This document shows, piece by piece, positions 17,275 through 54,316 of a stretch of 54,316 nucleotides of DNA (positions are counted from its first letter, which is position 1; every line of letters starts with the position of its first letter). Under the pieces are notes generated by a model. It ran no database searches, was not told the origin of the DNA, and was given only the letters and a program-made list of their open reading frames with translations. This DNA is from Candidatus Omnitrophota bacterium. Lineage in GTDB: Bacteria > Omnitrophota > Gorgyraeia > Zapsychrales > Zapsychraceae. The position numbers and the translations under genes are program-made. Location of the stretch: contig JACROV010000044.1 of NCBI GenBank assembly GCA_016214285.1, positions 1-54,316 of the forward strand. Reading direction: 5' to 3'.

Positions 17275-17397
17275 GATAACCATTCCGGTGATTCAACCTT
17301 TTTTGCCCAGATTCGCCATCGTTGTCACTACCAATCCTTCGTTCGCTAGAACGCTCCCTCCGGATTGGTATTGACCAGTAACCTTTTCTTCGGGACA
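17275..17397 (-). ncRNA. Structured intergenic element, copy 1 (trpE-rpsP)
   Basis: A 123-base element starts a few bases after the trpE stop and ends about 35 bases before rpsP. It is about 89 percent identical (hand count) to 21594-21715. On the minus strand it folds as a 14-bp stem, GTCAATACCAATCC with GGATTGGTAGTGAC (one A-G mismatch), capped by CGTTC-TAGC-GAACG. Between the two copies several stem changes are compatible with G-U pairing on this strand. A structured RNA or a MITE are both possible. Confidence 0.55.
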
Positions 17398-21593: not shown

Positions 21594-21715
21594 GATAACC
21601 ATTCCGGTGATTAACCCTTTCAGACCAGATTCGCCATCGTTGTCAATACCAATCCTTCGTTCGCTAAAACGCTCACTCCAGATTGGCATTGACCGGCAAC
21701 CTTTGGTTCGGGACA
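21594..21715 (-). ncRNA. Structured intergenic element, copy 2 (hisB-hisH)
   Basis: The second copy of the element at 17275-17397, in the same orientation, starting just after the hisB stop. The stem is GTCAATGCCAATCT with GGATTGGTATTGAC, capped by CGTTT-TAGC-GAACG. Relative to copy 1, three stem positions become G-U or U-G pairs. These would be mismatches if the other strand were transcribed. This favours folding in the mRNA of the flanking genes. No open frame is shared by the two copies. Confidence 0.55.
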
Positions 21716-41935: not shown

Positions 41936-42274
41936 CTATGGCCGCGGGGAAGGAGCCTGCCCGGCAATATAACTTTTACATCTCGGACACATAACAACGC
42001 CGCCCTGTTTATCGCTTATAAACACGTAAGTACAATATGGACACTGTTGCACCTGCTCAACGCTGGCGGCCGCGGTCTTTTCTTTGCCCCCATGGAAATT
42101 ATAAAATAGGGTTATGCCTTTGATGAACAGTGCAACAGGATTTCGTGCCCATCGTATGCTGGAAGTGGTAGTCAAGGGCATAACCCTATTATAAAATATC
42201 CATAGCACAAAAACAACGGCTAAAAGAATGGATAAGAAAATCGCTATGGCCAAAACAATGTCGACCTGGATCAT
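41936..42274 (-). CDS. Membrane-anchored zinc-ribbon protein carrying a 30-residue MITE insert
   Basis: A 112-residue protein: one membrane helix (VDIVLAIAIFLSILLAVVFVLWIF, 4-27), then 30 residues encoded by the miniature element and its target duplication (30-59, RVMPLTTTSSIRWARNPV onward, with FYN at 27-29 repeated at 57-59). A linker and a zinc ribbon (CPYC at about 78 and CPRC at about 97) follow. Without the insert the helix would lead directly into the linker. The reading frame is intact. The ATG overlaps the TonB-like gene stop (ATGA). Function unknown; the context is ExbB/ExbD and pilus genes. Confidence 0.7.
   Translation of the reverse strand: MIQVDIVLAIAIFLSILLAVVFVLWIFYNRVMPLTTTSSIRWARNPVALFIKGITLFYNFHGGKEKTAAASVEQVQQCPYCTYVFISDKQGGVVMCPRCKSYIAGQAPSPRP
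42108..42187 (+). mobile_element. 80-bp MITE, copy 1, in frame in the zinc-ribbon gene
   Basis: AGGGTTATGCCTTTGA at the left end and AGGGTTATGCCCTTGA (complement) at the right end: 16-bp inverted repeats with one mismatch. The flanking 10 bases ATTATAAAAT (42098-42107 and 42188-42197) are perfect duplicates. It is identical in sequence to 53975-54054, in opposite orientation. Eighty plus ten bases equals 30 codons, and the frame used has no stop. Confidence 0.92.
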
Positions 42275-49465: not shown

Positions 49466-49717
49466 CTATTTTCTTTTTGCCGCTTTTTTCTTTTTGCCTC
49501 CACGGACCATCTTGGCGCAAGAAATGTCACCGTGCTTGTCGATGAAGTAGAGGTATCCCCCCACCTTCTTGATGCCGACCTTGGCGACCTTCTTTGTCTG
49601 CCCGCCTTTTTTGCTGCCGCGGGCCATCTTCGCGCAGGACACGTCACCGTGCTTGTCCACAAAATAGAGGTATCCTTTTTCCTTCTTGACGCCTACTTTC
49701 GCTACTTTCTGAGCCAT
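49466..49717 (-). CDS. Small basic protein of two tandem repeats, unknown function
   Basis: An 83-residue lysine-rich protein composed of two near-identical units (residues 4-42 and 43-83). Each reads KVAKVG(V/I)KK, then GYLYF(V/I)DKHGD(V/I)SCAKM, then RG(S/G)KK. Each unit has one Cys, a YLYF strand and an invariant DKHGD. Basic tails suggest nucleic-acid or ribosome binding, which is inference. An ideal AAGGAGGTGA site and a terminator suggest a strongly expressed monocistronic gene. I do not recognise a named family. Confidence 0.8.
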   Translation of the reverse strand: MAQKVAKVGVKKEKGYLYFVDKHGDVSCAKMARGSKKGGQTKKVAKVGIKKVGGYLYFIDKHGDISCAKMVRGGKKKKAAKRK

Positions 49718-53082: not shown

Positions 53083-53400
53083 TTAGAGTTTAACGCGGAT
53101 AATCCCTTTCGGCAAATCCTTCATCACTGTTAAAACCTTTGGGATCAAAGGCGTCAGATCATCCAGACGATTTGTTTTAGCGGACAAAACGATGATCGGA
53201 ATTTTTGCCCGTAATAAATTCACCTGATATTGCAGGTTCTGATCGATCGTGATAAAAACATCAAATTTGCTTTCAGCCAGCTTTAATAATTCTCCATTTT
53301 TCTTCCCTGACCAACCTGCCTCCGCGACCGTTACAACCTTATGGCCGTGCAATTCATGCGCAAGTCTGGCAGGCAGAGATTCGTCGAGAAGTATCTTCAT
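53083..53400 (-). CDS. DUF5615 PIN-like toxin
   Basis: A 105-residue PIN-like domain: MKILLDESLPARLAHEL, GHKVVTVAEAGWSGKKNGELL, FDVFITIDQNLQYQVNL, IPIIVLSAKTNRLDDL. The acidic residues (Asp6, Glu7, Glu in GELL, Asp in TIDQN) are in PIN-like positions. Overlap with the DUF433 gene upstream (ATGA) makes a toxin-antitoxin module, whose likely activity is RNA cleavage. Confidence 0.85.
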   Translation of the reverse strand: MKILLDESLPARLAHELHGHKVVTVAEAGWSGKKNGELLKLAESKFDVFITIDQNLQYQVNLLRAKIPIIVLSAKTNRLDDLTPLIPKVLTVMKDLPKGIIRVKL

Positions 53401-53606
53401 TTGGCCAATGCTTTTTCCTTGAGGAGTTCCAGAACCTGAAGCGCCTGCTTGCGGGTAACCGACGGATAATCTTTAAGGAAATCATTCAATCTGTCTCCCG
53501 CTTCGAGATAATCAATTAACGTGCCTACCGGGACCCGGGTGCCGGAGAAGACAGGTGTTCCACCCAGAACATCCTTGGAACGCTGAATAACCAGTGGTTT
53601 AATCAT
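53397..53606 (-). CDS. DUF433 antitoxin
   Basis: A 69-residue helix-turn-helix-like DUF433 protein: VLGGTPVFSGTRVPVGTLIDYLEAGDRLNDFLKDYPSVTRKQALQVLEL, with the family signature GTPVFxGTRVPV. It is the first gene of the pair and has an AAGGAGGG site. The order antitoxin-toxin is standard for these modules. Confidence 0.88.
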   Translation of the reverse strand: MIKPLVIQRSKDVLGGTPVFSGTRVPVGTLIDYLEAGDRLNDFLKDYPSVTRKQALQVLELLKEKALAK

Positions 53607-53661: not shown

Positions 53662-54156
53662 TTATTCTTTCTTATTCCCTTGATATGCTCTTTCTCTAAA
53701 CAAAATTTGCTTTTCTATCGCATCAAAAACATCTTCTGGTGCAGCAGTATCTATTCCATAGCTTTTTCTTGTAACCTTCAATATTATCTTTGTATCTGTA
53801 TCGCTAACCTTGCTCAAATTAAAACCAAAGATCTTTCCCGGGATGTTAAAATTAGGTCCGAAATCCCTCGCTGAAATTATACCTTTATCATAATCTTTTA
53901 TAAAAATTGTCGCACCCCAATCGTGTATCACATCTACAATGGCTAAAAAAGCATCATCGTAAGAATAACTAAATAGGGTTATGCCCTTGACTACCACTTC
54001 CAGCATACGATGGGCACGAAATCCTGTTGCACTGTTCATCAAAGGCATAACCCTATAACTAAATTGCTTTTCATATACATAGCCTGTACCCTCAATGTCT
54101 TTTTGGGAATGTACATTCAAATCATGCAAGTTAGCACAGCCGGCGAGTAATGGCAC
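53662..54156 (-). pseudogene. Lipoprotein gene, 5'-truncated by an IS and carrying an in-frame MITE
   Basis: The frame encodes a lipoprotein-like segment: FQALFIVPLLAGCANL, with the lipobox LAGC, but the part before VPLL has no start codon. The codons upstream run into the terminal repeat of an insertion sequence at 54183 and meet a stop. A GTG at 54154-54156 would leave only six residues before the Cys. Residues 35-64 (30 residues, counted from GTG) come from the MITE plus duplication. The rest (DDAFLAIVDVIHDWGATIFIKDYDKGIISARDFG) resembles small lipoproteins of unknown function. It may be inactive since the IS arrived. Confidence 0.65.
53975..54054 (-). mobile_element. 80-bp MITE, copy 2, in frame in the lipoprotein gene
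   Basis: The same 80 bases as at 42108-42187 in opposite orientation, without any difference. A perfect 10-bp duplication ATAACTAAAT flanks it (53965-53974 and 54055-54064). It duplicates Phe-Ser-Tyr in the host protein. It is read in the opposite direction to copy 1 relative to the host gene, giving a different stop-free peptide. Confidence 0.92.
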
Positions 54157-54182
54157 AATGAATAAAGCCTGAAAAATTTTAT

Positions 54183-54316
54183 AGGGTTATGCCCTTGATG
54201 ACCATTACTACTAAATCTTGTGGATATGATTCAATCTTTACCGCCATGAATATCTTGAGCCGTAACCGGAGCGATATTTACCGCTTGTTGGATAAGGCGG
54301 TAGAACAACAATCCAC
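54183..54316 (+). mobile_element. Left end of an insertion sequence sharing the MITE terminal repeat
   Basis: AGGGTTATGCCCTTGA at 54183-54198 matches the MITE ends, and the similarity extends to ATGACC. The neighbouring AAAATTTTAT (54173-54182) would be its target duplication. The element continues beyond the window. Confidence 0.7.
54198..54316 (+). CDS. Start of a probable transposase, runs off the window
   Basis: An open frame of 39 codons starts at the ATG within the terminal repeat (54198) or at 54246. It includes MNILSRNRSDIYRLLDKA, helical and polar like a transposase N-terminus. The catalytic region is not visible, so the family is not assigned. The 10-bp target duplications of the related MITEs would fit an IS4-type enzyme, but this is inference. 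Confidence 0.45.
   Translation, partial: MTITTKSCGYDSIFTAMNILSRNRSDIYRLLDKAVEQQS

Follow-up and report, generated by a model that had tools for sequence, protein, structure and literature searches.

The stretch of DNA analysed here (the window; 54,316 nucleotides of contig JACROV010000044.1 from a Candidatus Omnitrophota bacterium) carries two copies of an 82-bp MITE, each lying within an open reading frame on the minus strand (Table 1). A repeat search of the window found arms at 42106-42190 and 53972-54056 that are 100% complementary; the MITE proper reads TAGGG...CCCTA, has no transposase gene and ends in 17-bp terminal inverted repeats that differ by one C/T change. A first-pass annotation had described two identical copies in reverse orientation, and 53974-54055 is indeed the exact reverse complement of 42107-42188; its placing of copy 2 at 53975-54054 located a real copy, trimmed of one base at each end. 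It was also correct that both hosts are on the minus strand and that each is stop-free through 30 codons, giving the peptides RVMPLMNSATGFRAHRMLEVVVKGITL (copy 2) and RVMPLTTTSSIRWARNPVALFIKGITL (copy 1). That the element is a MITE likewise holds, as it is short, has inverted ends, is dispersed in copies flanked by duplications and shares its ends with an insertion sequence (IS). Another terminal repeat, the third in the window, begins 126 bp from copy 2, at 54182, and is cut off by the contig end. Next to the ORF that hosts copy 2 lies a gene pair of toxin-antitoxin type (DUF433 and DUF5615/PIN-like; 53083-53606). The window also contains two pairs of 103-nt direct repeats that are unrelated to the MITE, at 17295-17397 and 21613-21715 (87% identical) and at 49491-49593 and 49608-49710 (78% identical).

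Table 1. Features around the two insertions in the window, followed by MITE copies inside genes elsewhere in the genome bin (contig:position)
Feature	Position	Strand	Frame through insert	Basis
ORF that hosts copy 1: small membrane + zinc-ribbon protein (82 aa, or 112 aa with the insert)	41936..42274	-	open (supported host)	family conservation
8-bp target duplication TTATAAAA (gene strand TTTTATAA), left of copy 1	42099..42106	+		
MITE copy 1, identical to copy 2, opposite orientation	42107..42188	-		repeat search and genome-wide copy alignment
8-bp target duplication TTATAAAA, right of copy 1	42189..42196	+		
Host ORF of copy 2: lipoprotein-like orphan, 164 aa with insert, 134 aa without	53662..54156	-	open (doubtful host)	
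8-bp target duplication TAACTAAA, left of copy 2	53966..53973	+		
MITE copy 2, 82 bp, ends TAGGGTTATGCCCTTGA / TCAAAGGCATAACCCTA	53974..54055	+		repeat search and genome-wide copy alignment
8-bp target duplication TAACTAAA, right of copy 2	54056..54063	+		
8-bp flank AAATTTTA next to the parent IS, a presumed duplication of the target whose other half is off contig	54174..54181	+		
Parent IS end, terminal repeat TAGGGTTATGCCCTTGA, cut by contig end	54182..54316	+		
Parent transposase C-terminal end (...GLLFYRLIQQAVNIAPVTAQDIHGGKD*), partial	54231..54316	-		read from sequence; same end in C57
Two copies in giant ORF	C99		open (supported host)	
One copy in giant ORF	C51		open (supported host)	
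Beta-barrel porin, insert inside signal peptide	C73:5215		open (supported host)	
HTH_37 gene	C73:8841		open (supported host)	
Gp49-like gene	C82:8047		open (supported host)	
YHS-domain protein	C3:137		open (supported host)	
Enolase-superfamily gene	C3:10722		closed (supported host)	
LysM lipoprotein	C6:3998		closed (supported host)	
Doubtful host	C91:51285		closed	
Doubtful host	C1:14017		closed	
Doubtful host	C4:15792		closed	

We find that insertion of the MITE is accompanied by duplication of 8 bp. When copies were aligned genome-wide, the flanks matched exactly over 8 bp in 46 of the 50 that could be evaluated, and the aligned target sites form the palindrome A-TTWWWWAA-T. An A precedes the duplication in 44 of these 46 copies and a T follows it in 44, with both present in 42, so that in 42/46 the flanks resemble a 10-bp duplication because an A and a T are preferred beside the target. 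The 10-bp duplication ATAACTAAAT that had been proposed at copy 2 is therefore not borne out, and the true duplication there is the 8-bp TAACTAAA: four copies (L011, L021, L047 and L095) carry another base at the flanking A or T and rule out a 10-bp duplication, while the terminal T and A of the element itself never vary among copies. Four MITE copies (L009, L076, L097 and L098) have flanks that do not match, which suggests rearrangement or recombination through the repeats, or a mixture of strains.

The spread of the MITE is a recent burst. The genome bin (1.82 Mb in 104 contigs, 88% complete) holds at least 51 full copies, far more than chance would give, and the genome-wide alignment that the first-pass annotation had proposed shows 50 of the 51 to be identical and one to carry a single substitution. 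Allowing at most one mismatch, the terminal repeat has no match in five same-genus genomes, and the burst is thus young; the claim of very recent transposition is in this way upheld. Within the family a match to the terminal repeat was found only in one genome, G029, where it is one right end of the parent element (sequence L112, identical to L116, from an Omnitrophica WOR_2 bacterium). When 84,980 species were scanned for the 17-base pattern of the ends, 21 stretches matched; among those inspected, only L116 has the right end of the parent and the others are lone chance matches, and the rest of the 21 lie in unrelated phyla. A single match turned up in viral contigs, a terminal repeat standing alone between unrelated flanks; in phages there was no match. 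We note that two copies in the same orientation lie 92 bp apart at C44:3002-3177 (L081), each with its own 8-bp duplication, and that C82:16532 (L183) holds a relic, a truncated copy that has lost one end and has a base changed, where an open frame of 567 codons has its edge.

The third terminal repeat of the window belongs to a longer parent element, which about 14 contigs carry at or close to their ends; C3, among these, displays only 20 bp and could equally carry a MITE. Assembly typically stops about 137 bp into this element, which accounts for many contig breaks in the bin. Left ends of the parent number 8 and right ends up to 7; in three left/right pairs the 8-bp flanks on the two sides of a contig break are identical. 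Of the two ends, one encodes MEDYPKTMLEFKKLFNTEQSCQEYLYKM, the other ...YYLDEFVFRFNRRTSQSRGLLFYRIIQQAVNIAPVTAQDIHGGKD*. The C-terminus of the transposase matches PF12762 (DDE_Tnp_IS1595) at 31-32 bits, against a cut-off of 27, over the C-terminal 36 profile positions, and matches NF033547 (IS1595 family transposase) with an E value of 1.6e-9, below that model's cut-off. On the evidence of these sequences we assign the parent to the IS1595 family of insertion sequences. The transposase is known from its two ends alone, its central part being absent from the bin, which is why the catalytic residues are not seen. An ORF at the window edge (54189, plus strand) was considered as the start of the transposase and rejected, since that gene is read from the minus strand.

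The MITE and the parent share the first 25 bp at the parent's right end and, at the other end, the 17-bp repeat apart from a C/T change at one position. The interior of the MITE has no match in the present parent, and the MITE is thus not a simple internal deletion of it. On C59, near the contig start, a MITE with the duplication ATGTAATA lies within a parent end (L094), and the MITE therefore moved after that parent copy inserted. The flank TTATATTTTTTTATCAAAGAGC follows a MITE at the end of C39 (L076) but the parent IS at the start of C29 (L052), which may reflect strain mixture, recombination between MITE and parent, or an assembly join. The same genome contains a second, diverged element of IS1595 type (L103; C24, from about 20594), with the terminal repeat TAGGCTTATCCAGTTAA and a transposase that matches PF12762 at 81.6 bits.

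Since the 82 bp of the element and the 8 bp of the duplication together make 90 bp (30 codons), insertion never shifts the reading frame. In each orientation one of the three phases is stop-free and the remaining two meet a TAG at once or a TGA. Host ORFs, from gene calls made within this analysis, were recovered by joining the flanks, blind to phase; stop-to-stop frames of fewer than 80 codons were excluded as hosts, and small hosts may be missed. We took Pfam matches, family conservation or location in a contig-long ORF as outside support for a host. The frame is open in 8 of 10 copies with supported hosts, and in 9/14 when doubtful hosts are added. Target-like coding sites, with occupied sites masked, fall in the open phase in 36-37% of cases at score thresholds of 4-6 and in 29-33% above; these threshold counts replaced a PWM-weighted phase null, discarded for being dominated by a few occupied sites. 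At a null of 0.36 the binomial tail is about 0.006 for 8/10 and 0.03 for 9/14, on small counts. Three of the nine open copies are in the forward and six in the reverse orientation. The excess of open copies is consistent with selection removing disruptive ones. Genic copies make up at most 14 of the 46 with duplications, versus a coding share of 50-80%, depending on the threshold, among the target-like sites of the window; this shortage fits the removal of harmful insertions, the window being a small sample.

Two of the contigs with in-frame copies are each a single ORF over their whole length: C51 (L175-L176; 36,570 bp, about 12,189 codons) with one in-frame MITE, and C99 (L177; 15,309 bp, about 5,102 codons) with two. 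Their scanned parts contain carbamoyltransferase, radical SAM, kinase and methyltransferase domains, and giant ORFs are already known in Omnitrophota (PMC10066038).

For copy 1 an empty site is available. Its host gene is found in 23/32 family genomes, its own genome counted, and comparison shows, in a same-genus relative (G005), a single TTTTATAA and no insert, the region (GCTATGGATATTTTATAATTTCCATGGGGG / GGATATTTTATAATTTCC) being exactly 90 bp shorter with homology on both sides of the insertion point. Three further same-genus sequences keep the target site, or nearly so. The insert falls in the linker from the membrane helix (WIFYN) to a CPYC...CPRC zinc ribbon; as this linker varies among relatives, an insertion there should be tolerated.

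Copy 2 is less clear-cut. That it is still in frame, as the first-pass annotation put it, is true to the extent that the frame is open; being in frame is weak evidence of function here, because the host has no relatives among the family and phylum genomes searched and the parent IS lies just upstream of the presumed signal peptide. That the host ORF is non-functional, an orphan or decaying frame whose open reading is accidental, is a possibility to which we give slightly less than an even chance. Neither the 31 other genomes of the family nor 284 others of the phylum contain a homologue of the ORF, which also has no Pfam or NCBIfam match in a profile search and a neutral codon score; no empty allele was found for it among those family and phylum genomes. 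The codons immediately before the apparent signal peptide are taken up by the parent IS with its 8-bp flank, which makes the function of the ORF doubtful; to judge from this position, the IS has probably separated the native start codon from the gene, which may be dead or may be expressed from another start. In favour of a functional gene are its lipoprotein-like start (KIFQALFIVPLLAGCAN), with a lipobox-like LLAGC sequence, and the 134 codons that stay open on both sides of the insert. If the host is non-functional, the reading of the MITE as a mobile element stays intact and copy 2 is lost as a tolerated protein insertion.

A separate possibility is that the element is itself built to spare its hosts, its total length of 90 bp and its dual open frames being maintained by selection to lessen harm, which would make it comparable to the in-frame palindromic elements of Rickettsia. 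The length fits, both orientations are open, as the first-pass annotation had noted, and giant ORFs hold three in-frame copies. Dual openness is nevertheless unremarkable, since 36% of trials in which the 32-bp interior was shuffled between fixed ends left both orientations open, as did 26% with 48 bp shuffled. The chance of dual openness given the ends (about 0.26-0.36) is to be multiplied by a factor of one third for a total length that is a multiple of three. A single family cannot show design, most copies lie outside genes, and the copies are too young for a codon-level signal; some other genic copies, those in the enolase-superfamily and LysM genes, break the host frame. We consider such selection on the element very unlikely, although if it did operate the MITE would be a recurrent source of 30-residue insertions, giant Omnitrophota proteins included. 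We give still less credence, indeed hardly any, to the idea that the element is a coding repeat akin to the Rickettsia palindromic elements and not a MITE derived from an IS: it is short, with palindromic ends, and occurs in frame within unrelated genes, but its exact 8-bp duplications, the co-resident IS with the same ends and the location of most copies outside genes all speak against this.

The account that we favour, and hold to be very probably right, is that the MITE is moved in trans by an IS1595-family transposase, that its genic insertions add 90 bp in frame and that harmful ones are purged. The transposase would be supplied by the parent, of which there are several copies in the same genome, and would mobilise the non-autonomous 82-bp element into the palindromic A/T-rich site A-TTWWWWAA-T with duplication of 8 bp, each event adding 90 bp. 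The downstream frame would always be kept, and in the one phase of three that is stop-free, in either orientation, 30 residues would be added; insertions that break useful genes would be purged, leaving the surviving genic copies to lean towards the open phase, and copies 1 and 2 would be two such survivors. What we see directly are the element, its duplications, the ends of the parent, the empty site of copy 1 and the open frames; movement in trans, purging by selection, and the production or function of the lengthened proteins are inferences. Of all landings within genes, about a third would add a peptide rather than break the gene. Parent and MITE belong to known kinds, and in-frame insertion of MITEs is essentially known; the case offers a very young and clean example of a mini-transposon spreading in an uncultured phylum, in which an empty site is seen and frame-preserving insertions are in measurable excess, and makes the seeding of short protein insertions by transposons testable while the inserts are still identical.

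Several known systems resemble this one in part. ISApl4, of the IS1595 family, produces 8-bp A/T-rich duplications, and TTTTATAA, the duplication of copy 1, is listed among them; as here, an IS1595-type transposase is accompanied by many copies at mostly non-coding sites (PMC12561309). In contrast to ISApl4, the element copied here is a derivative of 82 bp that lacks a transposase, and the terminal repeats differ (TAGGGTTATGCC... versus GGGGCTGTACTAGA). Rickettsia palindromic elements are also short mobile repeats that add in-frame peptides to unrelated proteins, but they are about 150 bp long and form ten families (PMC10969869), whereas we find one 82-bp family with a parent IS, 8-bp duplications and sites mostly outside recognisable genes; of the 46 copies with duplications, 8-9 lie in frame within ORFs. 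QMITE1 and QMITE2 of Coxiella burnetii are similar in having about 50 copies, some of them in frame in ORFs, and differ in their length (150-400 bp), their duplications and their host (PMC5896051).
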